Shown in pieces: positions 17,012 to 40,682 of a stretch of 40,754 nucleotides of DNA; position 1 is the stretch's first letter, and the number at the start of each line of letters is the position of its first letter. A program made the translations under genes and the position numbers. The notes beneath the pieces were generated by a model. That model made no database searches. It saw only the letters and a program-made list of their open reading frames with translations, and was not told where the DNA came from. This DNA comes from Acidimicrobiaceae bacterium. Its GTDB lineage: Bacteria > Actinomycetota > Acidimicrobiia > Acidimicrobiales > Aldehydirespiratoraceae. The stretch lies in NCBI GenBank assembly GCA_026710865.1, contig JAPOQG010000098.1, forward strand, positions 1 through 40,754, in the 5' to 3' direction.

Positions 17012-18088
17012 CTAGTCGGGCTTGCGGGCCAGGAAACAGTAGAGCGGCGTGAAGATCCCGGCTCGACCGCCGGCTGCATAGGCGTTGGCTGTCCGATGCA
17101 GCATCTCGACGACCTCCGCAGAACCCTTCGGGAGGATCCTCAACGCCTCGGCCAGCCTCGATCCCCCGATCGCCGTCTTGCGGCCGTGCGGAACCCCCAT
17201 CACGGAATTGCCCAGCGTTCTGCTCCAGGACTCCAGGGGCCGATACCACGGCGTGGTCGAACCGTTCTCCTCGGCGCCCCGATCCATCCCCTCGATCAAC
17301 TCGAATCCCGCCGTCTCGAGCGCCCGGTTCACCTCGCCGAACGTTGCGATGTCCTTGAGGGCGATGCCGTGCCTGAGATCCTGCTCCATGGCCCGATGCT
17401 GGTCGTCGTCCGGATCGAACCTGTCCGTCATGCACATCTCCTGACCCCAGAAGAGGGCGCCGGGCTTCAGCACGCGGAAGATCTCGGCGAAGGCGCCCAC
17501 CTTGTCCGGCGCATGGCATGTCGATTCGATCGCGTAGCCGCGGTCGAACGTGCCGTCCGCCACGGCCGACATGTCCATGAAGCTGCATGTCAGGTAGTCG
17601 ACCATGTGGTCGAGGCCGGCCTCGGCGTCCAACGACTTCGCCCTCTCCATCTGGGTCTCGTTGATGTTGACCCCGACGACCCTGACGCCGGCCTCCGAGA
17701 CGACACGGCGCATCGGGCCGCCGATCCCGCAACCGATATCGACCACCGTCATGCCCTCGCGCAGCTCCAGCTTCGAGATCATCAGTCGCTGGTGCGCGAT
17801 CTTGGAGTCCTGCACGCTCTCGCCGGGCGACAGCGGCGCGAAGTGCAGCGACTCGCCCCAACCCCACACCATCAGATCGTTGGAGATGTCGTAGTACTCC
17901 CTGACGGTCTCGGTGTGGTCGTAGCCTGCTGCGCCATCATCCCGGGTGGACGCTCTGTCGAGCCATCCATCGAAGCGCCGGATCCGGCGGGCGACTCCCC
18001 CGCCGGTGCGGTTCGCGGCCCGCAGCCCCGTGAGTACTCGCAATAGTTTAGACACCCTCGCGAGCCTAGACGAGACGAGGCGCTCCAA
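17012..18088 (-). CDS. Sterol C-24 methyltransferase (SMT/ERG6)-like SAM methyltransferase
   Basis: WGWGESLHFAPLSPGESVQDS; VVDIGCGIGGPMRRV; YAIESTCHAPDKVGAFAEIFRVLKPG; EMCMTDRFDPDDDQHR; TTPWYRPLE. Confidence 0.8.
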   Translation of the reverse strand: MERLVSSRLARVSKLLRVLTGLRAANRTGGGVARRIRRFDGWLDRASTRDDGAAGYDHTETVREYYDISNDLMVWGWGESLHFAPLSPGESVQDSKIAHQRLMISKLELREGMTVVDIGCGIGGPMRRVVSEAGVRVVGVNINETQMERAKSLDAEAGLDHMVDYLTCSFMDMSAVADGTFDRGYAIESTCHAPDKVGAFAEIFRVLKPGALFWGQEMCMTDRFDPDDDQHRAMEQDLRHGIALKDIATFGEVNRALETAGFELIEGMDRGAEENGSTTPWYRPLESWSRTLGNSVMGVPHGRKTAIGGSRLAEALRILPKGSAEVVEMLHRTANAYAAGGRAGIFTPLYCFLARKPD

Positions 18089-18178: not shown

Positions 18179-19084
18179 TCAGACAGTCGGCTCCTGGGGC
18201 GGGGGGCCGAGACGTTCGAACTCGGCCTCCACGTCCTCGGTGGTGAGGGTGTTGGCCGAGAAGCGGAGACGGCGATCGGCGGCGTCGGCGTGGCGCTGGG
18301 CGGCCGAGAAACGGAAGAACCGGATGGCGATCAGGGTCCACAGGTACAAGCCGCCGAGCACCTTCATCACCGCCCCGGCGGCCTGCTGGTCGGCGGCCAC
18401 CGAGATGCCGAACAGGCGCTGGGCGTGGTCGTAGACCGGGTACACCGAGCCCTCGGCGAAGGTCAGCCAGGCGGCCGGAACGGTGGGGACGATCGACATG
18501 GCGAACAGGTAGACCATCTTGGCCGGCTCGGACAGGTGGAACTCCCGCAGCGGCCCCACCACCGGCGTCCACATCGCCAGCGCGCCGGCGAACATGAGCA
18601 GGTGCATGGCGTAGTGGAAGGGGCCGCTGCGCACCGACAGCTCGACCAGGGTGTTCCAGTGCATCAGCCCCTGCAGCGCGTTGAAGACCACCGCCGCCAC
18701 CAGCGGGTGCACCAGGCGGCGGATGATCCGGGCCGAGAGCGAGCCGTCGACCACGATCAGCCGGGCCAGCCACTCGGGCACGGCCATCAGCAGCAGCGGC
18801 GGCACCACGAAGCTGATCAGCAGGTGCTGCACCATGTGCACCGAGTACAGGTACTCCTCGGCGATGTCGTGCATCGGCCAGTCCGCCGAGACCCACAGCA
18901 GGGCCGTAGCGGCCACGAAGCACAGCCGCTGGCGCTTCGTCACCGCGGCCACGCCCGGCGGCACCGCCACCGGGGCCACCACCCTCACCACATAGACGGC
19001 GACGCCGACCAGCAGGGCGATCGTCAGCCACACCTCGGGATGGAACTGGTAGCGCCAGGCGTCGGTGGCGGCCGGCGCGCCCAT
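18179..19084 (-). CDS. CtaG-type cytochrome c oxidase assembly factor (caa3_CtaG family)
   Basis: Multi-TM with SVHMVQHLLISFVVPPLLLMAVPEWL; located in the oxidase operon. Confidence 0.88.
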   Translation of the reverse strand: MGAPAATDAWRYQFHPEVWLTIALLVGVAVYVVRVVAPVAVPPGVAAVTKRQRLCFVAATALLWVSADWPMHDIAEEYLYSVHMVQHLLISFVVPPLLLMAVPEWLARLIVVDGSLSARIIRRLVHPLVAAVVFNALQGLMHWNTLVELSVRSGPFHYAMHLLMFAGALAMWTPVVGPLREFHLSEPAKMVYLFAMSIVPTVPAAWLTFAEGSVYPVYDHAQRLFGISVAADQQAAGAVMKVLGGLYLWTLIAIRFFRFSAAQRHADAADRRLRFSANTLTTEDVEAEFERLGPPPQEPTV

Positions 19085-19086
19085 GC

Positions 19087-19467
19087 CTAGACCCAGAATT
19101 CGAAGACCGTCAACGTGACCAGGTACACGCCGACGGCCAGGGTGAGCCCCGCGGTGAACATCCGGCCGAACAGCTTGCTGTCGAAACGCAGGTGCATGAA
19201 CCAGGTGGCCACCAAATAGAACTTGACGACCATCATGAAGATCAGCGAGGGCACCAGCGCGACGCCCCAGTCGAGCACCGTTTCGAAGTAGGTGAACACC
19301 TCCAGCGCGGTGATCACGGCCAGCACGATGGCGATCTTGGCGTAGGCCCAGTCGGAGGGATGGGCGTGGCCCTCGTCGTGGTCGGCGTCGGAGTGCTCGC
19401 CGGCCGCGCCGGTAGCGGGCTCGGGGTGCTCGGAGGTGGCGGTGTCGCTCATCGGAGAGTGTCGCAT
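19087..19467 (-). CDS. Cytochrome c oxidase subunit IV-family protein
   Basis: 126 aa; IVLAVITALEVFTYFETVLDWGVALVPSLIFMMVVKFYLVATWFMHLRFDSKLFGRMF. Confidence 0.88.
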   Translation of the reverse strand: MRHSPMSDTATSEHPEPATGAAGEHSDADHDEGHAHPSDWAYAKIAIVLAVITALEVFTYFETVLDWGVALVPSLIFMMVVKFYLVATWFMHLRFDSKLFGRMFTAGLTLAVGVYLVTLTVFEFWV

Positions 19468-19492
19468 ATGGGGGCAGTGTCGCGCATGGGAG

Positions 19493-20125
19493 TCAGTCGG
19501 CGGGGATCAGGTAGATGACGGTGAAGATGAAGATCCAGACGATGTCCACGAAGTGCCAGTAGAGGCCCACGATCTCCACCGTCTCCGCGTTGCGCTGGGT
19601 CAGCTTGCCCTTCACCGACGCCACGAACAGCGACATCAGCATCACGATGCCGAGGCTCACGTGCACGCCGTGGAAGCCGGTCAGGGTGAAGAAGGCGCTG
19701 CTGGCCGGGTTGGTGGTGAAGGCCACGCCCTCGCGCACGAAGGTGGTGAACTCGTACACCTGCCCGCCGATGAAGATCCCGCCGAGCAGCGCGGTGGCCA
19801 GCAGCCAGGTGCGGCCGGCCTCGTCCTCGCCCCGGGACACCGCGGAGAGGGCCAGCACCATCGTCAGCGAGCTCATCAGCAGCACGAACGAGCTCACCGA
19901 CGTGAACGGGATGTCGAACACGTCGGTGGGCAGCGTGCGCCCGTTGCCCCGGGTCTTGTACAGCAGGTAGGTGGAGATCAGGCCGCCGAACAGCAGGCAC
20001 TCCGAGCCCAGGAACACCCACATGGCCAGCTTGGTGTGGGACAGGCCGGTGGTTGTCGCGTGCTCGTCGTGGCCGTCCTCGTCGGCCGCGTGGCCGTGAT
20101 CGGCTACCAGGGGCTCCGCGCTCAT
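19493..20125 (-). CDS. ctaE: Cytochrome c oxidase subunit III
   Basis: TKLAMWVFLGSECLLFGGLISTYLLYK; TGFHGVHVSLGIVMLM; GLYWHFVDIVWIFIFTVIYL. Confidence 0.95.
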   Translation of the reverse strand: MSAEPLVADHGHAADEDGHDEHATTTGLSHTKLAMWVFLGSECLLFGGLISTYLLYKTRGNGRTLPTDVFDIPFTSVSSFVLLMSSLTMVLALSAVSRGEDEAGRTWLLATALLGGIFIGGQVYEFTTFVREGVAFTTNPASSAFFTLTGFHGVHVSLGIVMLMSLFVASVKGKLTQRNAETVEIVGLYWHFVDIVWIFIFTVIYLIPAD

Positions 20126-20163
20126 GGCTGGGCTCCCCGGCCGGCGGGTTCGATGGCCATCAT
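20122..20163 (-). CDS. Candidate 13-aa micro-ORF coupled to ctaE (MMAIEPAGRGAQP)
   Basis: ATG at 20163 preceded by GGGAGGG; TGA overlaps ctaE ATG as ATGA. Confidence 0.3.
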   Translation of the reverse strand: MMAIEPAGRGAQP

Positions 20164-20276
20164 GACTGGCCCTCCCGGCCGGCGGGTCCTGTCCCCGGCG
20201 CGGCCTGACGGCGCGAGCGCCGCCATTCCTTGCCCCGGCGCCACCCCCCGGCCTGACTGGTCGCGTCGGGGGTCAT
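20160..20276 (-). CDS. Candidate 38-aa micro-ORF between coxA and coxC (MTPDATSQAGGWRRGKEWRRSRRQAAPGTGPAGREGQS)
   Basis: ATG overlaps ctaD stop (ATGA); its stop overlaps the next micro-ORF start. Confidence 0.4.
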   Translation of the reverse strand: MTPDATSQAGGWRRGKEWRRSRRQAAPGTGPAGREGQS

Positions 20277-22252
20277 GGCTGGTCGCCTTCTGTCGAACTG
20301 CCTTCGGTGGCCTCGTCGTCGTGGTGGTCGTGGGTGGCGTCTGGGTCGTCGACGGGTTCCATGGCCCACGAGTAGAGGGAGGCGATGGTGAGGAGGGCGC
20401 CGATCAGCGCCAGCCAGAGGTTGAAGATCAGGCCGTAGCCGATGAGCGGCAGCCCGACCGCCACCGCCAGCGGCCAGAACGACGGCGACGGCAGGTGCAC
20501 GCCGGTGGCCTCGCCGGTCTGGGCGGCCTCCTCCACGGTGGCGACCCGAACCACGGTGCCCTCGTCGTTCTCGGCGTACTTGTTGTGCCACCAGTCGTCT
20601 CGCCCGTGCACCTGGGGCACGGTGTCGAAGTTGTGCTCCGGCACCGGCGACGGGATCGACCACTCGAGGCTGCGGGCATCCCACGGGTCCGGCCCGGGCG
20701 GGGGCAGATGGGGGGCGTCGCGTTTGGACTTGACCACGTTCCACATGAACACCACCACGCTCACCGCGATCAGCAGCGACCCGACGGTGGCGGCCATGTT
20801 CCAGAACTCGAAGCCGTAGCCCCTCGCATAGGTGTCGATGCGCCGGGACATCCCCTGCAGGCCCAGGATGTGCATGGGGCCGAAGGTCAGGTTGAAGCCC
20901 ACCAGCATGATCCAGAAGTTCCAGTTGCCCAGCCGCTCGTTGAGGAAATGGCCCCACACCTTGGGCCACCAGAAGTACAGGCCGGCGAACAGGCCGAGCA
21001 CGCCGCCGCCGAAGATCACATAGTGGAAGTGGGCCACGATGTAGTAGGTGTCGGTCTGCTGGGTGTCGGCCGGCGCCACCGAGTGGGTCACGCCGGACAG
21101 GCCGCCGATGGTGAACATGGCCACCGTGGCCACCGCGAACTTCATGGCCACCGTGAAGCGCAGCCTCCCGCCCCACATCGTGGCAAGCCAGTTGAGGACC
21201 TTCACCCCCGTGGGCACTGCGATGAACATGGTCGAGAGCGAGAAGGCGGCCACCGAGATGGGCCCGATGCCCGAAACGAACATGTGGTGGGCCCACACGC
21301 CCCAGCCCATGAAGCCGATGGCGATGCCCGAGAACACCATGAACTCGTAACCGAACAGGGGCTTGCGGCTGAAGGTCGGGATTATCTCCGACACCACCCC
21401 GAAGGCGGGCAGGATGATGATGTACACCTCCGGATGGCCGAATATCCAGAACAGGTGCTGCCATAGGAGCGGGTCGGCGCCGGCGTCGGGGTTGAAGAAC
21501 TGGGCGTCGAAGAGCCGGTCGAACATCAACAGGAACAGGGCGACGGTTATCACCGGCAGCGCGAACAGCAGCAGGAACTGGGTGATCAGCAGCATCCAGG
21601 TGAGCACCGGCATGCGCATCAGCGTCATGCCCGGGGCCCGCATGTTGAGGCAGGTGACGATGAGGTTTATGGACGAGACCAGCGACGCTATGCCCAGGAT
21701 CTGCAGGCCGATGGCGTAGAAGTCCACGCCGTGGCTGGGCGAGAAGGCCACGCCGCTGTTGGTCGCATAGCAGAACCACCCGCAGTCGGCGCCGCCGCCG
21801 CCCACAATCCATGAGGTGTTCAGGAAGATGGCCCCCGACAGCCAGATCCAGTACGAGAGCGCGTTGAGGCGGGGGAAGGCGACGTCGCGGGCCCCGATCT
21901 GGAGGGGAATGAAGTAGTTCGCGAAAGCGGCGGCCAGCGGCATGATGAACAGGAACACCATGGTGACGCCGTGCATGGTGTACACCTGGTTGTAGACGTC
22001 GGCGCTGAGCACCGAGCCCTCGGGAGCGGCCAGTTGCAGCCGGATGAGCAGCGCCTCGACCCCGCCGACCACGAAGAAGAACATCGCGGAGGCGCCGTAG
22101 AGGATCCCGATGCGCTTGTGGTCGACGGTGCTGAGCCAGTCCCGCCAACCCCGGCCGCCCTGTGGTCGAGTGAACACGCCGAGGGGCCGCTCGACATAGC
22201 GGGCGGTGTCGCCCGGGCCGAGCTCGAGGGGCGTCTTCTCAGTGATCGCCAT
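20273..22252 (-). CDS. ctaD: Cytochrome c oxidase subunit I
   Basis: YTMHGVTMVFLF, WIFGHPEVYIIILP, GWGVWAHHMF and YYIVAHFHYVIFGG heme/CuB ligand motifs. Confidence 0.97.
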   Translation of the reverse strand: MAITEKTPLELGPGDTARYVERPLGVFTRPQGGRGWRDWLSTVDHKRIGILYGASAMFFFVVGGVEALLIRLQLAAPEGSVLSADVYNQVYTMHGVTMVFLFIMPLAAAFANYFIPLQIGARDVAFPRLNALSYWIWLSGAIFLNTSWIVGGGGADCGWFCYATNSGVAFSPSHGVDFYAIGLQILGIASLVSSINLIVTCLNMRAPGMTLMRMPVLTWMLLITQFLLLFALPVITVALFLLMFDRLFDAQFFNPDAGADPLLWQHLFWIFGHPEVYIIILPAFGVVSEIIPTFSRKPLFGYEFMVFSGIAIGFMGWGVWAHHMFVSGIGPISVAAFSLSTMFIAVPTGVKVLNWLATMWGGRLRFTVAMKFAVATVAMFTIGGLSGVTHSVAPADTQQTDTYYIVAHFHYVIFGGGVLGLFAGLYFWWPKVWGHFLNERLGNWNFWIMLVGFNLTFGPMHILGLQGMSRRIDTYARGYGFEFWNMAATVGSLLIAVSVVVFMWNVVKSKRDAPHLPPPGPDPWDARSLEWSIPSPVPEHNFDTVPQVHGRDDWWHNKYAENDEGTVVRVATVEEAAQTGEATGVHLPSPSFWPLAVAVGLPLIGYGLIFNLWLALIGALLTIASLYSWAMEPVDDPDATHDHHDDEATEGSSTEGDQP

Positions 22253-22287
22253 GTTGCTCCAGCACCTCCCTGCTCTCTAGCGCCACG

Positions 22288-23568
22288 TCACTCCACCTGG
22301 GTCGCTTCGATGATCCAGTCTGCGGGCCTGTTCCCCAGCCCTGCAAGGTAGGCCACCAGGTCGTCGATCTGCTGCTCGCTCAGGTCCAGGTCGGGCATGC
22401 CCCGGTACTGCTTGCCCGGCACGGTGTAGTTGGCCTTGAGATCTCCGGGGTTGCGCAGCCAGGCCTCGAGCTGGACCCGGTTGAGCGACCCGTCGGCGTT
22501 GTAGAGGTTGAAGATGCCGCCGGCGAAGGTGCTCCGGCTGGCGAGGTGGGTCAGGTTGGGGGCCGCCCCGGACGCCTGGTCGGCGCTCTCGAAGACGTCG
22601 TCGTTGACTCCCTCGATGACGTGGCAGGAGGTGCAGATGCCGGAGAACACCTCCAGGCCCGCCAGTGCGGCCGGATCGGCAGGCTCGACCGCGTCCTGAG
22701 TGGTATCGTCGACCCACGACTGGAAGTCGGCGGGGGTCAGCGCCACCACCTGCATCCTCATGCGGGAGTGGGACAGGCCGCAGAACTCGGTGCACTGCCC
22801 GAAGTAGAAGCCGGGATCGGAGGCCTCGATCTTCCAGGGCGAGAAGCGGTTGGGCACGGCGTCGCGCTTGCCGTTGAGGGCAGGGATCCAGAACGAGTGG
22901 ATCACGTCGCGTGAGGTGAGGATCAGCTCGACCTCCTCGCCGGTGGGGATCACCATCTGGCCGGAGGTGACGATGTCGGCCGGCGGCAGCGTCTTGGCGT
23001 CGCCGTGGGCCCTCAGATCGGCGAGGTCGACCTGATCGCTGAAGTAGTAGCGGAACTCCCACCACCACTGGTTGCCCACCACCACCACGGTCGGCTCCCA
23101 CTCGACGCTCCGATCGTCGACGGTGACGCCCATCAAGTTGGTCTCGGTGGCGTCGACGGTGGGAAGAGACCACAGCATGATTCCGGCCACGGCGGCCATT
23201 GTCACGAAGAAGCCCACGGTCCAGCCGACCTCCAGCGGGACGTGGCCGTGGGTCTGAGCGGGCCACTCGTCGTCGCCCTCGTAGTTCTTGACCCGGTTGC
23301 GCCATATCAGCCAGACCATGGCCACCGTGATGCCCACCAACACCACCGCGGCGATCCAGAAGACGGGAAGCACCCCCCTGGAGTGCAGTTCCCTGGCGAT
23401 CGGGCCCTGCGGTGCGAACGTGTCGAGCTCGGCGTCGGATGCGCAGCCCGTGGCGACGGCGGCGCCCAGCAGCGAGAGCAACCACCCAGAGACGCGGCCC
23501 AGCGGCCGAGCGGGGAGACGCACGTCAGCCGCTCTCCTCATGCACGGCCGGCTCGCCGGTCTCCTCAT
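22288..23568 (-). CDS. ctaC: Cytochrome c oxidase subunit II fused to a c-type cytochrome domain (start may be 23541)
   Basis: CuA motif GQCTEFCGLSHSRMRM; C-terminal CTSCHVIEG heme c motif. Confidence 0.95.
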   Translation of the reverse strand: MRRPASRPCMRRAADVRLPARPLGRVSGWLLSLLGAAVATGCASDAELDTFAPQGPIARELHSRGVLPVFWIAAVVLVGITVAMVWLIWRNRVKNYEGDDEWPAQTHGHVPLEVGWTVGFFVTMAAVAGIMLWSLPTVDATETNLMGVTVDDRSVEWEPTVVVVGNQWWWEFRYYFSDQVDLADLRAHGDAKTLPPADIVTSGQMVIPTGEEVELILTSRDVIHSFWIPALNGKRDAVPNRFSPWKIEASDPGFYFGQCTEFCGLSHSRMRMQVVALTPADFQSWVDDTTQDAVEPADPAALAGLEVFSGICTSCHVIEGVNDDVFESADQASGAAPNLTHLASRSTFAGGIFNLYNADGSLNRVQLEAWLRNPGDLKANYTVPGKQYRGMPDLDLSEQQIDDLVAYLAGLGNRPADWIIEATQVE

Positions 23569-24322
23569 GGGTGTCGACCTCGTGGTGGACGAAGTCGCGC
23601 TCGCCGGCCACCGCGGCGAGCACCCCGCCCACCAGCAGCAGCAGGGCGGCCACCGGTCCCAGGATCCGCACCAGGCGACGCCCGAGACCGGGACGGCTGG
23701 TGTACACCCAGGCGCCGATCAGGATCAGCCCGGACGCGACACCGGCGACCCACACTGCCTCCAGCTTGGACACGTTCAGCAGGATGCGGGAGGCGGCCAG
23801 CACGATCACAGCCACACCGAGCGTGCCCACGACGGGGATCTCGATGGGCGCCATGATGCGGTTGCGCAACTCCCGGTTGATCTCGGCGTCGCCGGTGGCC
23901 CGGTCGGACCAGGCGTCCATCGTCCACTCGACCAGCGAGAGGAAGAGCAGGGCGAGGCCCAGCACGAACACCATGGGGTGCAGCACCAGGCCCACCGCGG
24001 CCGCGCCCACGCCGAAGGCGGCCACCACCGGCCAGAAGCTGGCCCTCACGGGCTGGTCGGTGAGCACCTCGGCCAGGTTCTGGAGGCGGGCCTGGGCCGA
24101 GGCGTCGGCGTCGCGGAACGACACCAGCACCAGGCTGACGGTCAGACAGGCCACGGCCAGCCCGACGAGCACCCCGTAGCCGATGTGGTCGCCGACGCCG
24201 CCCTTCCAACCCAGCGAGACGGGGCCGACGTGGCTGCCGCCCGTGGTGTAGCCGTAGACGAGGGCGGCCGCACAGAAGGCGGCGGACAGTCCGAAGAAGA
24301 ACTTGAAACCGGTGGTGAACAT
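23525..24322 (-). CDS. Multi-TM membrane protein of the oxidase operon, function unknown
   Basis: 265 aa, several TM segments; overlaps ctaC 5' end. Confidence 0.75.
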   Translation of the reverse strand: MFTTGFKFFFGLSAAFCAAALVYGYTTGGSHVGPVSLGWKGGVGDHIGYGVLVGLAVACLTVSLVLVSFRDADASAQARLQNLAEVLTDQPVRASFWPVVAAFGVGAAAVGLVLHPMVFVLGLALLFLSLVEWTMDAWSDRATGDAEINRELRNRIMAPIEIPVVGTLGVAVIVLAASRILLNVSKLEAVWVAGVASGLILIGAWVYTSRPGLGRRLVRILGPVAALLLLVGGVLAAVAGERDFVHHEVDTHEETGEPAVHEESG

Positions 24323-24338
24323 GCTCGGCCCGCCTGCC

Positions 24339-24923
24339 CTACTTCGTGACGAACACGACGTACCACACCAGGAAGTAGCACAGCACGCACATATGCCAGA
24401 ACATTGCCGAGGCCTGCACCGCGTGGGCCAGATCGCGACCGAAGGGCCCCAGCAGCGAGCGGATGGTGGTCACCGCCAGCATCGCCATCGCCCCGACGAG
24501 CATGGCGATGAACGACCCGGTGACCGCGTAGAACAGCAGCTCGGCCCGGCCGCCGTCGATGGCGAAGGCGGTGTCCTGGTAGACGAACCAGAACTGGTTG
24601 ATGACCGCGGCGCCGAACATGAGGGTGACCCCAAGCGCGATGAACCCGTGGGGCCGGTCCTCGGCCCGGGCGGCCTGCACGGCCCACTGCACCGTCACCA
24701 TGGACAGCGCCAGCGTCATCATCATCATCCCTGCGGGGCCGAGCTCGACCGTGCCCGACGGGAACCACTCCTCGCCCAGGGCCAGGGTCTGCTGGCGCTG
24801 CTGGACGTACACCGACACGAGGGCGGCGAAGGCCATGAAGACCGCTCCGGTGGCCATCAGGGCGCCGACGACGACAGTGCGGGGGCGGGTCGCCTCCGCC
24901 GCCGGCAGCTCGGTCGTCCTCAT
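24339..24923 (-). CDS. Second heme-copper oxidase subunit III-like protein
   Basis: 194 aa; MMMMTLALSMVTVQWAVQAAR and MFWHMCVLCYFLVWYVVFV COX3-like helices. Confidence 0.8.
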   Translation of the reverse strand: MRTTELPAAEATRPRTVVVGALMATGAVFMAFAALVSVYVQQRQQTLALGEEWFPSGTVELGPAGMMMMTLALSMVTVQWAVQAARAEDRPHGFIALGVTLMFGAAVINQFWFVYQDTAFAIDGGRAELLFYAVTGSFIAMLVGAMAMLAVTTIRSLLGPFGRDLAHAVQASAMFWHMCVLCYFLVWYVVFVTK

Positions 24924-26479: not shown

Positions 26480-26543
26480 CGGGGGGCGATGCTACACATT
26501 GACGATGGGGCCGCCGACAATCGGCGTCGACGCGTCTTCATTG

Positions 26544-29262: not shown

Positions 29263-30357
29263 ATGGAGCCCACGAACACGCCGCTGGCGTCGGCCTTTCC
29301 CGAGGGCTGGTACCTCGTCGCAAGCCGAAGGGACCTGGAGAAGGCCGGGATCGTCCGCAAGACCTGGATGGGCACTGAGATCGTCGCCTGGTCCGGTGAT
29401 GACGGGAGCGTCTGCGTAGCCGAGGCCTATTGCCCGCACCTGGGTTCCGACATGGGGCCCTCGGTCGGGGGGAGCGTGCGCGACGGCCGTCTCGTCTGTC
29501 CCTTCCATGGCTTCGAGTACGACACCGGCGGACAGTGCGTCGCCACCCCCTTCGCCCCCGCACCGAGGGCGGCGCGGCTGCGGGTCTTCGAGTCCCGCCA
29601 GATCGCCGGCCTGGTGTTCGCCTGGTGGGGCATCGGTGGACGGCGACCGCAGTGGCACCTGCCCGAACAGGAGCCGGACCAGACCGGCTGGAGCGGCCTG
29701 CACATCTGGACCTCGCGTTTTGCCGGCCATCCCCAGGAGACCACGGAGAACTCGGTGGATCTGGCCCACCTGCGCTACGTCCACGGCTACGACAACGTGA
29801 GCCGCGTCGGGTCGATGTCGGTGGACGGGCACGTTCTCTCGAGCGACTTCGACTTCACCACCACCCGGAGGATCGCCCGATTCGCCTCGACCAAGCTCAA
29901 GGTGTCCGCCCGCACGCTTGTCTCGGGTCTGGGCTACTCGTTCGTGGAGGTGCGCGAGCACACCATCGGCCTGGACATGCGCCTGTGGATACTGGCGACG
30001 CCCGTCGACGGCGCGCTCATCGACCTGGCGGTGGTGTTGCAGACCGGGGAGATACGCAACCCGAGCCGCTGGATCGCGGGTCTGGGGTTCCTCCCGGTGA
30101 GGCTGCGCGCCCCCGTCATCAACAGGATCATGGCGTCCTTCGAGCGGCGGGACGTACTGCAGGACGTGCCGATCTGGAGCACCAAGAGCTACCGGTCCCG
30201 CCCGCGCCTGGCCCGCTCCGACGGCGAGATCATGCAGTACCGCTCCTACTGCGCCCAGTTCTATCCCGACCTGCCGGCCGAGGCCGGCGGCGCCGAGACC
30301 GTGGTCGACCTGCGCCCGGCAGCCGACGGGCAGAGGGCCATCGAGCGCCGCGCATGA
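29263..30357 (+). CDS. Rieske 2Fe-2S non-heme iron oxygenase (possible sterol C7-desaturase/KshA-like)
   Basis: CPHLGSDMG...VCPFHGFEYDTGGQCV Rieske centre; ENSVDLAHLRYVH mononuclear iron motif. Confidence 0.85.
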   Translation: MEPTNTPLASAFPEGWYLVASRRDLEKAGIVRKTWMGTEIVAWSGDDGSVCVAEAYCPHLGSDMGPSVGGSVRDGRLVCPFHGFEYDTGGQCVATPFAPAPRAARLRVFESRQIAGLVFAWWGIGGRRPQWHLPEQEPDQTGWSGLHIWTSRFAGHPQETTENSVDLAHLRYVHGYDNVSRVGSMSVDGHVLSSDFDFTTTRRIARFASTKLKVSARTLVSGLGYSFVEVREHTIGLDMRLWILATPVDGALIDLAVVLQTGEIRNPSRWIAGLGFLPVRLRAPVINRIMASFERRDVLQDVPIWSTKSYRSRPRLARSDGEIMQYRSYCAQFYPDLPAEAGGAETVVDLRPAADGQRAIERRA

Positions 30358-30430: not shown

Positions 30431-32914
30431 ATGAGCCGCCTGCTCGACCGGTTCAGCCGGCTGGTCACGGCCCGCCCGGCCATCACGATCCTCGTCCTCA
30501 TCCTCCTCACCGTCGTGCTGGCCGCGGGAGCTGCCCGGCGCGCGCCGCCCACCGAGGGAAACTCCGTGGAGTTCCTCCCACCCGGCAGCGCCGTCGCCAC
30601 CACGCTGGCCGAGCTCGACGAGCTCTTCGGGGAGTCCAGCGACGTCAGCGTGGCGACCCTGGTCTTCCGCGGCGAGGCGCTCTCGCCCGGCGGGCTCGCC
30701 CAGATGGACGCCCTGCTCGACGAGATCGAGAGCGACGCGGGCGTGGGCGGGCTGCTGGCGCTGGCCGACCCGGTCATCGCACCCTCGCTGGTGGTCCAGG
30801 CCGCCGGACTCGACCCGGCCGCGGCCACCCAGGCAGGGATCGACGCCGTCCGCAGCGTTCCCGAGATCGGCGGGGCACTGGGCGCGATGACCGGAACCGA
30901 CACGGACGGAACGCAGGTCGCGGTGGCCACCGTCCGTCTGAGCAACACCGGCGACGAGAGAGTCTGGGACGCCGAGCGGACCATCAACGATCTGGCCGCA
31001 GCCAGCGACGGCCCGCTGAGCGTGAGCAGCGTGTCGCCGATCGTGATCGAGGACGAGTACAAGTACGCCACCGAGACGGGGATGGCACCCCTGATCGGGC
31101 TGGCACTGCTGCTGATCGCAGGGCTGATCCTGCTCTTCATGCGCACGCTCTCGGACCTGCTGCTCACCCTCGCCGGCCTGCTCCTCTCGGTGAGCTGGAT
31201 CGTCGGGGCGGAGGGTTGGCTCGGGCCGAACGGGCTGGGCTGGATCGGTCCCCCGAGCTCGGTCTCGACGATGGTGCCGATCATCGTGATCAGCCTCACG
31301 GTCGACTACGCGATCCAGGCCGTCTCGCACTACCGCGAGCGGCGGCTCGACGGCGAGCCGGTGCTCGAGGCGGTCCGGACGGGACTGCACAACGTCGGCG
31401 TCCCCATCGTGCTGGCCGCGGTCACCACCATCGCCAGCTTCCTGTCGATCCTGTTCTCCCCGATCGGCGTGATCGGCGACTTCGGAGTCGTCGCCGCGCT
31501 GGGCGTGGCATTGAGCCTGATCGTGATGCTGTCGCTGATCCCGGCCGGACGGACGATCATCGACCGGCGGCGCGAGGCACGCGGCAGGCTGAAGGAGCCG
31601 CGGCCGGTCTCGGGCGCGCTGCCCGGCATCGAACGGGCGGCCGAGATGTTCGGGACGGCGGTGGCCCGCCGGCCGGCCCCCTACCTGATCGCCGTGCTGG
31701 CCGTGACAGTCGCATTCGGGTTCGCGGCCACGGGACTCCACTCGGTGTTCAGCATCCGCGACGTCCTGCCCCGGGGCGGGACCGTGCTGAACGACATGGA
31801 GACCCTCGAAGCAGCCGTCGGCGGCTCGACCGAGCAGGCTCGCATCCTCGTGAAGGCCGAGGCGACCGAGACCCGCACGCTGCTGAATGTGAGGGATCTC
31901 ACCAACGCCTTCGAGGACGGGCAGCGCCGCCCGCAGGCGGCTGCCGGGCCGATGGAGGCAACGTACGAGTCGCTGGCGCGCGACTGGACCCACGACAGCT
32001 CCGAGCCCGGCGACGACTACGACCCCGGCCTCGCCGCGCTCTTCGAGGAAGCCTCCGCCGGCGTCCAACTCGACCCGGTGCTGATGCAGGAGTTCCTCGA
32101 CCGGCTCGAGGCGATGGAACCCGCCCTGGCCCACGTTCTGGTCAACAATCCGGACGGGACGGACGCCATCCTGCTCCAGTTCCCGACCTACACCGACGAT
32201 CCCCGGGCGACCGCGGTCCTCCAGGAGGAGATCGAGGCCCTCTGGACCGGCGACGACGACGCCATCACCGCGACCGCCGAGAGCATCCTGGCGGTCGCGG
32301 TCACCGACCAGATCACCGACGGGCAGACAGAGTCGATCAGCACCACCGTCGCGGTCGCCCTCGGCATCCTGGCAATCTTCTTCTGGGTGACGCTGCGCCG
32401 GCCCACGCTGGCCGTCATCGCGGTCGGGCCGATCGTGCTCGTCCTCATCTGGGTCCTGGGCACGATGGCCCTGCTGGACATCCCCTACTCGCTGATCACC
32501 TCGATCATCACCGCGCTGTCGATCGGGATCGGCGTGGACTACACCATCCACGTGATCCATCGCTACCGCGAGGAGTTCGCCCAAGTGCGCAGGCCGGAGA
32601 CGGCCGCGATCCGGACCCTCGCGACCACCGGGTCGGCGCTGCTGGGCTCCGCGCTCACGACCGCGTTCGGATTCGGCGTGCTGGCCTTCTCGCCGCTGGA
32701 CGGGTCCCGGCAGTTCGGCATCACCGCGGCCATAACGATCGGGTACTCGCTGCTCGTCGCGGTCCTGGTGGTCCCGCCGGCGATGACCGTGTGGGGCGCC
32801 TACGAGAACATGCGCCTGCGATCGACGGTCCAGCGCCTGTGGGACGACATCGACGTGGCGGCCGAGGAGGTCTATCAGCGCCACGCCCAGGAGCCGGGCG
32901 CGTCAGACGGGTAG
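30431..32914 (+). CDS. MMPL/RND-family transporter
   Basis: 827 aa; two sets of TM bundles with VPIIVISLTVDYAIQAVSHYRE and ITALSIGIGVDYTIHVIHRYREE. Confidence 0.92.
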   Translation: MSRLLDRFSRLVTARPAITILVLILLTVVLAAGAARRAPPTEGNSVEFLPPGSAVATTLAELDELFGESSDVSVATLVFRGEALSPGGLAQMDALLDEIESDAGVGGLLALADPVIAPSLVVQAAGLDPAAATQAGIDAVRSVPEIGGALGAMTGTDTDGTQVAVATVRLSNTGDERVWDAERTINDLAAASDGPLSVSSVSPIVIEDEYKYATETGMAPLIGLALLLIAGLILLFMRTLSDLLLTLAGLLLSVSWIVGAEGWLGPNGLGWIGPPSSVSTMVPIIVISLTVDYAIQAVSHYRERRLDGEPVLEAVRTGLHNVGVPIVLAAVTTIASFLSILFSPIGVIGDFGVVAALGVALSLIVMLSLIPAGRTIIDRRREARGRLKEPRPVSGALPGIERAAEMFGTAVARRPAPYLIAVLAVTVAFGFAATGLHSVFSIRDVLPRGGTVLNDMETLEAAVGGSTEQARILVKAEATETRTLLNVRDLTNAFEDGQRRPQAAAGPMEATYESLARDWTHDSSEPGDDYDPGLAALFEEASAGVQLDPVLMQEFLDRLEAMEPALAHVLVNNPDGTDAILLQFPTYTDDPRATAVLQEEIEALWTGDDDAITATAESILAVAVTDQITDGQTESISTTVAVALGILAIFFWVTLRRPTLAVIAVGPIVLVLIWVLGTMALLDIPYSLITSIITALSIGIGVDYTIHVIHRYREEFAQVRRPETAAIRTLATTGSALLGSALTTAFGFGVLAFSPLDGSRQFGITAAITIGYSLLVAVLVVPPAMTVWGAYENMRLRSTVQRLWDDIDVAAEEVYQRHAQEPGASDG

Positions 32915-35059
32915 CTCGCGCCTCTTCTCGGAGATGCGGAACTTCAGCCTCCTGCTCGGTGACATCGACGGGAACGGGCTGATCCTGAATTTGTAGTTCT
33001 TGGGGGCGATCTCGAGCTTGAAGTAGTGCGCCATCATCAGCAGGTTGGTGGTCAAGTACAGTTCCGTCAACCGGGAGCCGAGGCAGGTGTGGGTGCCCAA
33101 GCCGTACGGGGCGTACCCGCTGCCCAGGTGTTCCTTGCGGGGAGCCTTGTAGCGGTCGATGTCGAACTTGTAGGGATCGGGGAAGAGATCCTCCATGTAG
33201 TGCGTGGCTGTCGTCACGATGAAGACCCGAACGCCCTCGGGCAGTTCGTAGCCCTCCACCTCGCACGCATTCGCAACGTTCCGGAGCGACAGCGGGACGA
33301 TCGGGTACATGCGCATCACTTCCATGATGAAGCGGCGAGTGACGTCGGTCCCCGGCCCGGTGAGTGCCTCGCCGTCCGGATCGCCGTCGGCGAACAGGGC
33401 ATCGGCCTCAGCGCGGATCCTCTCGTGGAACTCCGGCCGCGACACCATGGCGTGTGCGATGAAGCTGAGTTGGTCTCCGACGTACATGCTGGCGATCAGC
33501 GGTGCCGACAGCACGAACCGCAGATTCGACTCCGGGAGGAACTGCCGATCATTCGCATGCATGGTCAGCAAGTCGTCCACAAGATCCCGAGGACATCCAG
33601 CCCGCTGGGCGGGGGTATGGACCCTGAGGACCCGATCCACCACCTCACCGACCAGCTTCGCCCGGCGCCTCATGCCCGGGGTCTTCAGCATGAACTTGGG
33701 AAGAGTCCTGCCGATGTGCGTCTTGAGGGCGCGATCCTTGAACTTGTGCATGTCGTCGACGATGTCCTGCGAATCGATGCTGACAAGGAGCGGCGACATC
33801 ACCGAGTTGACCAGTTTCCGGCACATTCCCACCGCGGGGAGCCTCTCTCCGACATGCCAGGTCGACATCTCGTTCCGCGCGTGGGCGTAGAAGTCGTCCA
33901 ACTGCTCCGCCAGCCTGCTACGCGAGTAGGCGGGCTGGATGGACTTCCGGTACCGGAAGTGGTCGGCGCCATCGAGCGCGGGCAGCAGTCCCACTCCGCC
34001 GTAGACCTTCTCGAAGTCCTCCAGATAGTCCCTGGCTCTCAGGTGCGTGCGGCCATGCCGATGCACCCAGTGATTCGTCTCGGGCCCTACGAGACAGACC
34101 ATGTTGTCCGCGATCGGCGGCCGGATCTCGAACACCGGGCCGTACTCCGCGTGGAGTTCGGCGAACACCGCAGGGAGGTTGCCGGCGCGAACGTTCTTGC
34201 TGCGAAGCAGCTTCCGCAGCTTGACGACGGGAATCTGCTTGCTCAGGGCGGATCGCCGGAACAGTGGCCCAGCGATGTTGTGGCCGACCGCTTCGGCGAT
34301 GGCCCGCCCGATCAGGTCCATCCTGCAGATGTCCTCGACACGCTGCTCGGACTCCTCGTCGAGCTCGAAGATGAACCGCAGGACGTCGCAGGTGTCGATG
34401 AGACAGATGATGATGACGTCTCTCGGGTCCGGGATCTCGTTGTTGAAGATGGCCCGGCTGATGCGGGTCTTGACGAACTCGACGGCGGTGCCCACCTCGG
34501 ATCCCGTGTGGGCTCCCATCCGCCAGGCGGATCCGGCCAGCGACCAGAAGTCGCCGTCGTGATGCTGCAGGATCTTCAGGTCGCACAAGCGGGCCAGCGT
34601 CAGGTCGATGATCGACTCCGCCTCGGGGGCGAGCCGCTCGATCCAGTAGTGGGCGCTGCGTCGACTCTTCTCAGCCGCGATCGTGTAGAGGACGGGGTCG
34701 AGCGCGGGATCGCCGGTCGCGGTCCCGTCCAGAAGGATCAGAGACTCCATGTCCGTGTCGATCCGAGACAGGAGCGACAGCTCGGCGAGGGCCGCACCGA
34801 CGACGGCGCAGTTCAGGTTCCAGCCCGCAACCTGGCGGAAGTAGCCGCTCTCCTCGTTGAGGAGCGTCAGGACGAGCTCGTCGATGAGAGTCAACGACCT
34901 GGTCATCACGCCGCTTGCCGAGGTCATGAGACCTGACTCTACGCGCCGCAATCGGCCGATGGGTAGTCGTTTCTAACACTGCGGACAACAGCGACGGGCC
35001 CTCCCCGAGTCCGCTACCCGGCCCGCCGCAGGGGGCCGGTAGGCTGGGCCGGTCGGCGA
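32634..35059. repeat. Segmental duplication, copy 1
   Basis: Direct sequence similarity to 36717-38996 (mmpL 3' end, GPP34-P450 gene, upstream non-coding sequence). Confidence 0.9.
32903..34927 (-). CDS. GPP34 (GOLPH3-like) domain - cytochrome P450 fusion, copy 1
   Basis: N-terminus SLTLIDELVLTLLNEESGYF...AALAELSLLSRIDTD...DGTATGDPALDPVLYTIA (GPP34-like); C-terminus EVMR (ExxR) and YAPYGLGTHTCLGSR (heme Cys). Confidence 0.85.
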   Translation of the reverse strand: MTSASGVMTRSLTLIDELVLTLLNEESGYFRQVAGWNLNCAVVGAALAELSLLSRIDTDMESLILLDGTATGDPALDPVLYTIAAEKSRRSAHYWIERLAPEAESIIDLTLARLCDLKILQHHDGDFWSLAGSAWRMGAHTGSEVGTAVEFVKTRISRAIFNNEIPDPRDVIIICLIDTCDVLRFIFELDEESEQRVEDICRMDLIGRAIAEAVGHNIAGPLFRRSALSKQIPVVKLRKLLRSKNVRAGNLPAVFAELHAEYGPVFEIRPPIADNMVCLVGPETNHWVHRHGRTHLRARDYLEDFEKVYGGVGLLPALDGADHFRYRKSIQPAYSRSRLAEQLDDFYAHARNEMSTWHVGERLPAVGMCRKLVNSVMSPLLVSIDSQDIVDDMHKFKDRALKTHIGRTLPKFMLKTPGMRRRAKLVGEVVDRVLRVHTPAQRAGCPRDLVDDLLTMHANDRQFLPESNLRFVLSAPLIASMYVGDQLSFIAHAMVSRPEFHERIRAEADALFADGDPDGEALTGPGTDVTRRFIMEVMRMYPIVPLSLRNVANACEVEGYELPEGVRVFIVTTATHYMEDLFPDPYKFDIDRYKAPRKEHLGSGYAPYGLGTHTCLGSRLTELYLTTNLLMMAHYFKLEIAPKNYKFRISPFPSMSPSRRLKFRISEKRRELPV

Positions 35060-36716: not shown

Positions 36717-36822
36717 GGCGGCGCTGTTGGGCTCCGCGCTTGCGACGGCGTTCGGGTTCGGCGTGGCGGCCGAAGAGGTGTACCAGCGCCACGCCCAGGA
36801 GGAGGACGCGTCACACGGGTAG
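36717..36822 (+). pseudogene. Remnant of MMPL transporter 3' end
   Basis: GAALLGSALATAFGFGV|AAEEVYQRHAQEEDASHG matches intact mmpL residues with a 59-codon internal deletion. Confidence 0.88.
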
Positions 36823-38835
36823 CTCGTGCCTCTTCTCTGCCACGACGAACTTCAGCTTCTTGTTCGGGCACATCGACGCGAACGGGCTGATCTTGAGCTT
36901 GTAGTTCTCGGGGGCGATCTCGAGCGTGAAATAGTGGGCGATCATCAGCAGGTTCATCACCAACTGCATCTCCACCTGCCGGGAACCGAGACACGTGTGC
37001 GTGCCCAAGCCGTACGGGGCGTAACCACTGCCGAGATGCTCCTTGCGCGGAGCCGCGTAGCGGTCGATGTCGAACTTGAAGGGGTCGGGGAAGAGTTCCT
37101 TCATGTAGTGGGTCGCGGTCGTGGCGATGTGGACGCGTACCCCCTCCGGCAGCTCATAGCCCTCGACCACGCACGCGTTCATCACGTTTCGAACCGACAT
37201 CGGCACGGTCGGATAGAGACGCAGACACTCCATGATGAAGCGGGACGTGACGTCGACCGCCGGGCCTGTGATCGTCTTGGGATCCGGATCGCCGTCGGCG
37301 AACACGGCATCGGCCTCGGCGCGGATCATCTCATGGAACTCTGGCTGCGACAGCATGGCGTAGACGATGAAGCTCAGTTCGTCTCCTACATACATGCTGG
37401 CGAGCAGCGGAGTCGAGAGCACGAACCGCAGATTCGACTCCGGAAGGAACTGCCGATCATTGGTGTGGATGCTCAGCAGGTCATCGGCGAGATCTCGGGG
37501 ACACCCAGCCCGCTGAGCAGGAGTATGGCCGCTCTGAACCCGGCTGACGACCTCGTCGATCAGTCTTGCCCGACGCTTCATTGCCGGGGTCTTCAACAGG
37601 AACTTGGGGTGGGTCTTGGCGAGGTACGCCTTGAGTGCTAGCTCCTTGAACGTCTGCAGATCCTCGACGATGTCCTGCGACTCGATGCTGACTGTCAAAG
37701 GCGATATCTGCGAGTTGACCAACAACCGGCACATTCGCACCGCGCGGAACTCCTGTCCGACAGCCCAACTCGCCATGTGGTTCCGTGCGTACGAGAAGAC
37801 CTCATCAAGCCGCTCTTCCAGCCTGGTGCGCGAATACCCGGACTGAACGGACTTCCGGTACCGGAAGTGATCAGCGCCGTCGAGACCAGGCAACAGGCCC
37901 ACCCCGCCATAGACCTTCTCCATGTCCTCGAAATAGTCCCTGGCCCTCAGGTACATGCGCCCGTGCCGATGAACCCAGTAATTCGTCTGGGGCCCGGCAA
38001 TGAAGATCATGGGCTCCTTGAAGGGCGGCCGGATCTGGAACACCGGTCCGTGCTCTTCTGCGATCTCCGCGAAGAGCGCGGGGATGTTGCGGGTGCGGAG
38101 GTGCTCGCTGCGCAGCAGCCTGCGCAACTTGACGACGGGAATCTGCTTGGTCAGGGCGGAGCGCCGGAACAGTGGCCCGGCGATGTTGTGGCCGACCGCT
38201 TCGGCGATGGCGCGGCCGATCAGGTCCATCTTGCAGATTTGCTGGACGCGCTCCTCGGACTCCTCGTCGAGATCGAAGATGTAGCGCAAGGCGTCGCAAG
38301 TGTCGATGAGACAGATGATGATGACGTCTCTCGGGTCCGGGATCTCGTTGTTGAAGATGGCCCGGCTGATGCGGGTCTTGACGAACTCGACGGCGGTGCC
38401 CACCTCGGATCCGGTGTGGAATCCCATCCGCCAGGCCGATCCGGCCAGCGACCAGAAGTCGCCGTCGTGATGCTGCAGGATCTTCAGGTCGACCAAACGA
38501 TCCAGCGTCATGTCGATGATCGACTCCGCTTGGGGAGCGAGCCGCTCGATCCAGTATTGGGCGCTGCGTCGACTCTTCTCAGTCGCGATCTTGTAGAGCA
38601 GGGGGTCGAGCGCGGGATCGCCGGTCGCGGTCCCGTCCAGAAGGATCAGAGACTCCATGTCCGTGTCGATACGAGCCAAGAGCGACAGTTCGGCGAGGGC
38701 CGCGCCGACGACGGCGCAGTTCAGGTTCCACCCCGGAACCTGGCGGAAGTAGCCGCTCTCCTCGTTGAGGAGCGTCAGGACGAGTTCGTCGATGAGAGTC
38801 AACGACCTGGTCATCACGCCGCTTGTCAAGGTCAT
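36811..38835 (-). CDS. GPP34 (GOLPH3-like) domain - cytochrome P450 fusion, copy 2
   Basis: Same architecture; ECLR (ExxR) and YAPYGLGTHTCLGSR. Confidence 0.85.
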   Translation of the reverse strand: MTLTSGVMTRSLTLIDELVLTLLNEESGYFRQVPGWNLNCAVVGAALAELSLLARIDTDMESLILLDGTATGDPALDPLLYKIATEKSRRSAQYWIERLAPQAESIIDMTLDRLVDLKILQHHDGDFWSLAGSAWRMGFHTGSEVGTAVEFVKTRISRAIFNNEIPDPRDVIIICLIDTCDALRYIFDLDEESEERVQQICKMDLIGRAIAEAVGHNIAGPLFRRSALTKQIPVVKLRRLLRSEHLRTRNIPALFAEIAEEHGPVFQIRPPFKEPMIFIAGPQTNYWVHRHGRMYLRARDYFEDMEKVYGGVGLLPGLDGADHFRYRKSVQSGYSRTRLEERLDEVFSYARNHMASWAVGQEFRAVRMCRLLVNSQISPLTVSIESQDIVEDLQTFKELALKAYLAKTHPKFLLKTPAMKRRARLIDEVVSRVQSGHTPAQRAGCPRDLADDLLSIHTNDRQFLPESNLRFVLSTPLLASMYVGDELSFIVYAMLSQPEFHEMIRAEADAVFADGDPDPKTITGPAVDVTSRFIMECLRLYPTVPMSVRNVMNACVVEGYELPEGVRVHIATTATHYMKELFPDPFKFDIDRYAAPRKEHLGSGYAPYGLGTHTCLGSRQVEMQLVMNLLMIAHYFTLEIAPENYKLKISPFASMCPNKKLKFVVAEKRHELPV

Positions 38836-39368: not shown

Positions 39369-40682
39369 ATGACACTCGTCTCGCCCGGTCCTTCCATCAA
39401 GCCCCCGCCCGCGACGGAGGCGGACCCTCGCAACCCGATCCACAACAAGTTCTGGATCCGGCCCCGCGACCAGGTGGAGGAAGACCTCAGTGGTCTGCGC
39501 TCGCAGCCGCTCACGTTCTTCCCCGGCTTCCAATTCAAGGACGAACTGGCGGGCCTCCGGACTCCGGGTGCCTGGGTCGTGCCCCGGCACGCTCCCATCC
39601 TGGAGGTGTCGCGCAACCCGAGGATCTACTCCTCGGCCTCCGGAGTCACCATCAACGACTTCCCGCCCGAGTTCAACGAGTACTTCAACTCCATCATCTC
39701 CATGGACGCCCCCCGCCACGCCCGGCTCCGGAGGCTGGTGGCGGCAGGGTTCACCCCCCGGATGCTGGCCCGGCTGGAGGACTCGGTGCAGGACCAGGCC
39801 AAGATCATCGTGGACGAGGTCTGCGAGCGGGGCGAGTGCGACTTCGTCACCGACGTGGCCGCCCGCCTGCCGCTGCGCATCGTGTGCGACCTGATGGGGA
39901 TACCCGACTCGCACCACGACTTCGTGTTCGACCAGTCCAACATCATCCTGGGCGCGGCCGACGAGGAGTACGTGCCCGAGTTCGGCGACCTGATCACCGC
40001 CATCCTCACCGCGGGCGAGGCCCTGTCCCAGCTCATGGACGACGTGGCCACCTCCAAGGTGGGCGTGGACTCCGACGACCTGACCAGCATCCTCGTCAAT
40101 GCGGAGGTCGACGGCGAGCGGCTGACCCGGGCCGAGCTGGCCAGCTTCTTCATCCTGCTGGTGGTGGCCGGCAATGAGACCACCCGCAACGCCATCAGCT
40201 GGGGCCTGGTGTACCTCACCGACCATCCCGACCAGCGCCGCATCTGGGCCGAGGACTTCGAGGGCGTGGCCCACACCGCGGTGGAGGAGATCGTGCGAAT
40301 CGCCAGCCCGGTCACCTACATGCGCCGCACGGCGTTGTGCGACACCGTGCTGGAGGGCACCAGGATCGACGAGGGCGACCAGGTGGTGATGCACTACCTG
40401 TGCGCCAACCGGGACGAGTCGGTGTTCGACGACCCTCTCGCCTTCGACGTGCGGCGCGACCCCAACCCCCACGTCGGCTACGGCGGCCCCGGCCCCCACT
40501 ACTGCCTGGGCGCCCACCTGGCCCGCCGGGAGATCAAGGTGATGTTCCGCGAGCTGTTCACCCGCATCGGCGACATCGAGGCCACCGGCGACCCCGAGCT
40601 GCTGTCCTCCGCCTTCATCCACGGCATCAAGCACCTCCCCGCCCAGTTCACCCCGACCAACCCAAGTCCCACCCACCCCTGA
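39369..40682 (+). CDS. Cytochrome P450 (CYP124/125/142-like)
   Basis: VVAGNETTRNAISWG I-helix; EEIVR ExxR; GYGGPGPHYCLGAHLAR heme-binding motif. Confidence 0.93.
   Translation: MTLVSPGPSIKPPPATEADPRNPIHNKFWIRPRDQVEEDLSGLRSQPLTFFPGFQFKDELAGLRTPGAWVVPRHAPILEVSRNPRIYSSASGVTINDFPPEFNEYFNSIISMDAPRHARLRRLVAAGFTPRMLARLEDSVQDQAKIIVDEVCERGECDFVTDVAARLPLRIVCDLMGIPDSHHDFVFDQSNIILGAADEEYVPEFGDLITAILTAGEALSQLMDDVATSKVGVDSDDLTSILVNAEVDGERLTRAELASFFILLVVAGNETTRNAISWGLVYLTDHPDQRRIWAEDFEGVAHTAVEEIVRIASPVTYMRRTALCDTVLEGTRIDEGDQVVMHYLCANRDESVFDDPLAFDVRRDPNPHVGYGGPGPHYCLGAHLARREIKVMFRELFTRIGDIEATGDPELLSSAFIHGIKHLPAQFTPTNPSPTHP

Follow-up and report, generated by a model that had tools for sequence, protein, structure and literature searches.

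A divergent bacterial subfamily of the sterol methyltransferase family and its putative sterol-tailoring gene set

Introduction

Does a bacterial protein that shares most of its motifs with sterol C-24 methyltransferases (SMTs) methylate sterols at C-24, or does it act at another position or on another lipid altogether? The question is raised by a gene, here called SMT-A, in a 40,754-nucleotide stretch of DNA (the window) from an Acidimicrobiaceae MAG. An earlier note on this DNA proposed that the lineage may alkylate sterols or another lipid, and described sterol alkylation as rare in bacteria. This rarity needs qualifying, because SMTs of sponge-symbiont bacteria have already been published and steroid clusters of Acidimicrobiia are known as well (PMC10070321, PMC9531527). 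24-Isopropyl and 26-methyl sterols in old rocks are read as the first trace of animals; side-chain alkylated sterols are taken as such a trace because sponges contain them. SMT-A may therefore help to settle who makes the unusual 'sponge' sterols that serve as fossil evidence of early animals.

Results

SMT-A carries the domains of the SMT family

The gene under study is the following:

17012..18088, minus strand: SMT-A, a divergent sterol methyltransferase-family protein (PF08498, Methyltransf_11 and CMAS matches; alignments, fixed residues and tree)

The open reading frame encodes 358 aa when counted from a TTG codon, but aligned orthologues suggest that a GTG at 18055 is the likelier start, which would give 347 aa. 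It was confirmed as real: Pfam matches, orthologues across the genus and the dN/dS ratio all argue against a chance frame. Most genomes of the genus have an orthologue (76-86% identical), a further three genomes, from two sister genera, encode SMT-A at 61-69%, and dN/dS is 0.23-0.30; this conservation, together with the ratio, indicates a functional gene under selection.

A Sterol_MT_C domain (PF08498; 56.5 bits against a cut-off of 21.7, E=3e-15, residues 302-357) follows a SAM methyltransferase domain that matches Methyltransf_11 (E=6e-17) and CMAS. SMT-A is the sole PF08498 protein detected in the window's genome, and none was found in any of 14 control genomes. All the strings on which the earlier note had relied, WGWGESLHFAPLSPGES, DIGCGIGGP, YAIESTCHAPDKVGAFAEIFRVLKPG, CMTDRFDPDD and PWYRPLE, occur in the frame, and Region II (DxGCGxGGP) is present as VVDIGCGIGGP. 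Against reference sequences that serve as a yardstick and stand for no database record, SMT-A is 32% identical to yeast Erg6 (202 bits), 40% to Arabidopsis SMT1 (234 bits) and 32% to SMT2 (208 bits). On these sequence features, SMT-A is assigned to the SMT family.

An AlphaFold model was confident (mean pLDDT 85) and had the expected fold. Its nearest solved structures were small-molecule and isoprenoid C-methyltransferases, including geranyl diphosphate methyltransferases, and the matches listed contained no structure of a eukaryotic SMT. The fold search on this model adds just that the predicted fold is right.

Region I residues tied to C-24 chemistry are replaced across a distinct clade

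The earlier note had credited the protein with the full motif set of C-24 SMTs. We compared 82 members of the SMT-A subfamily with 9 canonical bacterial SMTs and with reference SMTs. Regions II and III proved intact, but the C-24 signature of Region I, Y81EYGWG86...F89HF (numbering from PMC6997595), was not found in the window protein, which reads MVWGWGESLHF (MVWGWG for YEYGWG). In Region III, YAIESTCHAP is present, followed by GQEM in place of (V/A)YEW, so that QEM stands for YEW. These replacements are fixed or nearly so: Tyr81 is Met, Phe89 is Leu and Tyr223 is Gln in 82/82 members, and Glu82 is replaced in 79/82 (by Val or Ile in 78) and kept in 3. Region I has been tied to the methylation-deprotonation chemistry of SMTs (PMC5711494), and SMT-A is not classed here as a C-24 SMT because its Region I signature is replaced.

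The subfamily nevertheless retains much of the canonical framework. Among 115 columns conserved in canonical SMTs, 75 keep the same residue in SMT-A; GWG, HFA and an aromatic residue (W/F/Y) at the Erg6 83 position are retained in nearly all members, so that among the 24-SMT aromatics of Region I Y81 is lost whereas W/F/Y83 and W85 are kept. With the eukaryotic C-24 SMTs (yeast Erg6, plant SMT1 and SMT2) SMT-A shares the domain order, Region II, Region III YAIE(S/A)TCHAP, Sterol_MT_C and PWY.PL, but it differs from them by Y81 to M, E82 to V, F89 to L, Y223 to Q and W225 to M, and by forming a clade of its own. This single clade was recovered with support of 98/98; the all-SMT clade, set against distant methyltransferases, was not rejected (p-AU 0.32), with very long outgroup branches. 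Alignment and tree thus define SMT-A as a separate subfamily of the SMT family, with predicted alterations among substrate-pocket residues. Canonical SMT paralogues encoded within the same clusters retain FYEYGWG or FFEFGWG.

SMT-A is embedded in a gene set that recurs across phyla

A scan of 85,462 species genomes yielded 548 relatives of SMT-A, and the best 80 of the 548, described here, are 63-86% identical to the window protein. The MAGs that encode these 80 are labelled Acidimicrobiia, Chloroflexota/Dehalococcoidia, Dadabacteria, Nitrospinota, Gemmatimonadota, Nitrospirota, Alpha- and Gammaproteobacteria, Latescibacterota and Acidobacteriota. Many relatives carry bin codes that we take to be sponge-survey codes. 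A published list of sponge species backs this reading (PMC8163846), and the Nitrospirales genus 'bin75' is sponge-associated (PMC11812461); on this reading, the relatives come mainly from sponge-symbiont MAGs. Because SMT-A occurs across phyla at such identity, we infer horizontal transfer among them, to which the sequences point.

Neighbours were counted at the 57 SMT-A loci flanked by 5.5 kb or more on each side. A protein fusing GPP34 to a cytochrome P450 (GPP34-P450) and a KshA-like Rieske oxygenase were each found near SMT-A in 40/57 loci, a flavoenzyme in 28/57 and an MMPL transporter in 23/57. In 25 loci GPP34-P450 is the next gene downstream of SMT-A, in convergent orientation, and the two genes co-occur over 61 genomes with p=1e-6, by a statistic that ignores relatedness. 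SMT-A, GPP34-P450, the Rieske oxygenase, the flavoenzyme and the sterol-type MMPL transporter most likely make up a putative sterol-tailoring set.

All members of this set but the flavoenzyme are present in the window, 11-22 kb from SMT-A, together with a CYP124/125-like P450; they lie beyond a cytochrome oxidase cluster:

18179-27440: cytochrome oxidase cluster (CtaG-like, subunits I-IV), with SMT-A directly downstream

29263..30357, plus strand: Rieske [2Fe-2S] oxygenase of the KshA_C type (PF00355, PF19298 E=1e-23; PDB KshA E=3e-22)

30431..32914, plus strand: MMPL/RND transporter with sterol-sensing-domain similarity (PF03176 E=1e-41; PF12349 Sterol-sensing E=5e-12; Patched)

32903..34951, minus strand: GPP34-cytochrome P450 fusion, copy 1, 682 aa (PF05719 E=1e-29 at 22-223; PF00067 E=7e-31 at 256-656)

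35187-36638: AAA_14/DUF4143 ATPase gene, flanked by the tandem GPP34-P450 copies

36811..38835, minus strand: GPP34-cytochrome P450 fusion, copy 2, 674 aa, 78% identical to copy 1

39369..40682, plus strand: CYP124/CYP125-like P450 (PF00067; PDB CYP124A1 E=5e-114, CYP125 1e-82)

The transporter matched MmpL4, HpnN, PTCH1 and NPC1 in the PDB. The GPP34-P450 fusions of the window showed no I-helix motif of the usual form [AG]Gx[DE]T, but their haem-binding motif is intact (YGLGTHTCLG in copy 1), and the fusion is an unusual P450, perhaps docked to the membrane by its GPP34 part. The CYP124/CYP125-like enzyme belongs to a group of methyl-branched lipid and sterol omega-hydroxylases.

In related genomes SMT-A stands closer to these genes. 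It directly adjoins the MMPL gene, with GPP34-P450 nearby, in two genus mates (G002, G003), and in the former a P450 43-44% identical to the window's CYP124/125-like P450 also lies close to SMT-A. It directly adjoins GPP34-P450 in a sister genus (G019), and in another (G025) it lies between MMPL and GPP34-P450, with the Rieske oxygenase and a PF01593 flavoenzyme upstream. The position downstream of the oxidase cluster is found in most of the genus but is missing in G002, G003 and the sister genera, which indicates that either SMT-A or the oxidase cluster has moved. A quinone or haem substrate, as the oxidase neighbours could suggest, was considered and rejected, since that arrangement is confined to some members of the genus, whereas the sterol-type set is found again in other phyla.

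SMT-A is linked to sterol biosynthesis genes in relatives

The core genes for OSC (oxidosqualene cyclase), CYP51 and ERG24 were not found around SMT-A in the window but were found in Nitrospira relatives (e.g. L178). At five SMT-A loci of sponge Nitrospira (L178, L191, L207, L212 and L188), several of the following lie within 10 kb of SMT-A: SdmB, SdmA (409.9 bits to the SdmA model), an ERG4/ERG24 reductase (E=3e-70), a true CYP51 (PDB E=1e-100), a fusion of squalene epoxidase and oxidosqualene cyclase (SE-OSC, 1146-1220 aa), a canonical SMT, the flavoenzyme, the Rieske oxygenase and GPP34-P450. The canonical SMT stands beside SMT-A in L178, L191, L207 and L212. The idea that GPP34-P450 might serve as this pathway's CYP51 was also rejected: the Nitrospira cluster that carries the fusion has a separate CYP51, to which the fusion is only 22-23% identical.

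Within the genus of the window, 10/16 genomes encode squalene epoxidase (SE) and OSC: seven have them fused in a single ORF of ~1115-1146 aa, and three have two genes side by side. In G001 the separate genes adjoin GPP34-P450 and MMPL; in G005 and G012 their neighbours are SdmA- and SdmB-like genes. The genus cyclase is an OSC by its match to lanosterol synthase (E=1e-136 vs ~1e-52 for hopene cyclase) and by its DCTAE motif.

Fused SE-OSC ORFs of ~1112-1220 aa were located at L118:7202-10549, L121:9351-12689, L117:735-4103, L212:2202-5642 and L178:4381-8043, and the fusion is 68-69% identical over its full length between Acidimicrobiia and Nitrospirota. A PF04116 gene of the fatty acid hydroxylase/sterol desaturase family, with a frame that appears broken by stops, lies inside a Nitrospira sterol cluster (L188:7543-7830).

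Sterol supply may differ among SMT-A genomes

The epoxidase and cyclase search proposed in the earlier note thus gave hits in the genus, but neither squalene epoxidase, OSC nor SHC was found in the MAG of the window itself (4.33 Mb, 92.8% complete, 424 contigs) with Pfam models and the full SE-OSC protein as queries, which returned FAD-domain look-alikes only. An assembly gap may account for this, since 7/12 SMT-A-bearing genomes of the genus have the SE-OSC fusion, often near contig ends. The same MAG does encode a sterol reductase of the ERG4/ERG24 family, of which 14/14 control genomes have no member. The sterol in this genome may be made de novo, which is conceivable because genus mates have SE-OSC, or it may be taken from the host. 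As the host could supply the substrate, SE and OSC count as a supporting trait of an SMT-bearing organism and not as a defining one.

Beyond the genus, the fusion was found in just 7/40 other SMT-A genomes examined, several SMT-A genomes have either SHC-like cyclases alone or no cyclase, and a Dadabacteria MAG that consists of a single 1.6-Mb chromosome (OX638332.1) matches no cyclase. The low count indicates that sterol supply is often external, or that the substrate is not a sterol. Host-sterol use has been argued for a chlamydial SMT (PMC10070321), and by analogy host sterols may be the substrate in cyclase-less SMT-A symbionts; a non-sterol substrate is the main alternative for these genomes.

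Adjacent HpnC/HpnD-type squalene synthase genes are present in the MAG of the window (G000:C212:17486-19291, L062). The lack of a detectable squalene cyclase or epoxidase is shared by G003, G008, G015 and G019.

Discussion

We propose that SMT-A is a SAM-dependent carbon methyltransferase of the SMT family that likely methylates a sterol, probably on its side chain, within a tailoring set of sponge symbionts, a reading based on sequence comparison to which we give a probability of about 0.6. The suggestion that the lineage alkylates sterols is in part borne out by the SMT family assignment, by SE and OSC in genus mates and by the Nitrospira sterol cluster, but Region I is incomplete at the very residues linked to C-24. 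Counting against the proposal, too, are the lack of hits for SE or a cyclase in the window's MAG, the low number of other SMT-A genomes with SE-OSC (7/40) and the 11-22 kb that part SMT-A from its set in the window. In the proposed mechanism, a double bond in the side chain of the bound sterol would receive the SAM methyl group by electrophilic transfer, what is left of the aromatic wall (GWG, and W/F/Y at the Erg6 83 position) would hold the resulting carbocation, and proton loss would then yield a new alkene. The substrate would probably be an already methylated or otherwise modified sterol rather than that of the first C-24 methylation, since Y81, E82, F89 and Y223 are replaced and canonical SMTs adjoin SMT-A in some clusters. 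A more ambitious version is tentative: SMT-A may methylate sterols at a new position or use a new sterol substrate (e.g. C-26, or C-4 on a 3-oxo sterol), acting in a horizontally shared set with a membrane-docked GPP34-P450 through which sponge symbionts of many phyla would remodel sterols, self-made via SE-OSC in some of them and sponge-derived in others.

Several other assignments were weighed against this proposal, one being an ordinary C-24 SMT that performs the first methylation (desmosterol or zymosterol type) and tolerates the Region I changes. The 75 retained canonical columns, the standing of SMT-A as the only PF08498 protein found in the window's genome and the methylation of desmosterol by bacterial SMTs from sponge metagenomes (PMC10070321) are all consistent with it, but of two residues in the Region I that the literature ties to C-24 cation-pi chemistry, Y81 is replaced in all 82 members and E82 in 79 of them, and the same clusters also encode canonical SMTs with the signature intact; we regard this assignment as unlikely. 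A specific form of our preferred reading, in which SMT-A methylates C-26 or acts in a second or third round on the side chain, leading to 26-methyl, 24-ethyl or 24-isopropyl sterols of the sponge type, is possible but rather unlikely. It would fit the divergent paralogue that adjoins a canonical SMT in four sponge Nitrospira loci, one of which (L178) is from Nitrospira 'bin75', a genus mainly from marine sponges including Aplysina (PMC11812461). The 26-methylated aplysterol is the major sterol of Aplysina aerophoba, and the C-26 alkylation enzymes (for aplysterol and 26-methylstigmastane precursors) were still to be identified in 2023 (PMC10070321). Against this form, one published bacterial SMT reaches the 24-isopropyl stage alone, and SMT-A is also found where no canonical SMT is, as in the genome of the window.

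Substrates and sites further from the sterol side chain fare less well. Methylation of squalene, a hopanoid, a polyprenyl or another isoprenoid lipid could be imagined from the HpnC/HpnD-type genes that stand without a detected cyclase in the window's MAG, and from the SMT-A genomes with SHC-like cyclases or none; it is distinctly improbable, however, as two SMT-A genomes (G025, G036) gave no match to squalene synthase, the Dadabacteria examined match no cyclase, and in Nitrospira SMT-A sits among sterol-specific genes (CYP51, ERG24, SdmA/B). Ring-A methylation at C-4 of 3-oxo sterols would parallel the nematode 4-SMT (H14E04.1), an SMT-family enzyme without the Region I signature aromatics whose pathway includes the delta-7 desaturase DAF-36 (PMC6997595), and SMT-A does combine an altered Region I with a KshA-type Rieske neighbour. 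The analogy is strained by the GWG, HFA and position-83 aromatic kept in nearly all members, and by the greater closeness of SMT-A to 24-SMTs (32-40% to the yardstick references) than is seen for the nematode enzyme, which is far more distant from Erg6 (21%, PMC6997595); because SMT-A retains most 24-SMT features, C-4 methylation is very doubtful. Finally, general methyltransferase models and structures match the catalytic domain, as they would in a small-molecule methyltransferase (tocopherol, phosphoethanolamine, sarcosine or RebM type) with SMT-like motifs. But the RebM-like, CMAS, sarcosine, PEAMT and UbiE models match mainly the Rossmann domain, the best NCBIfam match reaches 77 bits against a cut-off of 550, and Sterol_MT_C and Regions I and III are SMT traits, which makes such an enzyme highly improbable.

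How does this system compare with those already described? The sponge-symbiont SMTs of Brown et al. 2023 share with ours the symbiotic setting, the uncultured bacterial hosts and sterol clusters with sdmA/sdmB; that study tested 24 SMT proteins, and its main text names neither P450 nor Actinobacteria (PMC10070321). The steroid clusters of Ircinia symbionts span 11 classes including Acidimicrobiia, are often flanked by SMT1/ERG6 and contain ERG24, CYP51 and lanosterol synthase; GPP34-P450, the KshA-like Rieske oxygenase, the flavoenzyme, MMPL and the SE-OSC fusion are not among the genes named in the passages on these clusters (PMC9531527). As far as the literature was searched, the substitutions fixed in Region I, the recurring gene set and the GPP34-P450 and SE-OSC fusions are new, no description of either fusion having been found, and this novelty would partly fall if the 24 SMTs of PMC10070321 include SMT-A. 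The SMT-A subfamily, its associated oxygenases and the transporter provide named candidates for the alkylation steps still missing and for the remodelling of host sterols by bacteria, and both fusions offer enzyme architectures that can be tested.

Variation of Region I extends to a third type of SMT-family protein in the genus: a long-branched protein of G005 (L018:1480-2643), 32% identical to that of the window, has Region I altered otherwise (YELAWG), and its genome also encodes SdmA- and SdmB-like proteins, SE and OSC.
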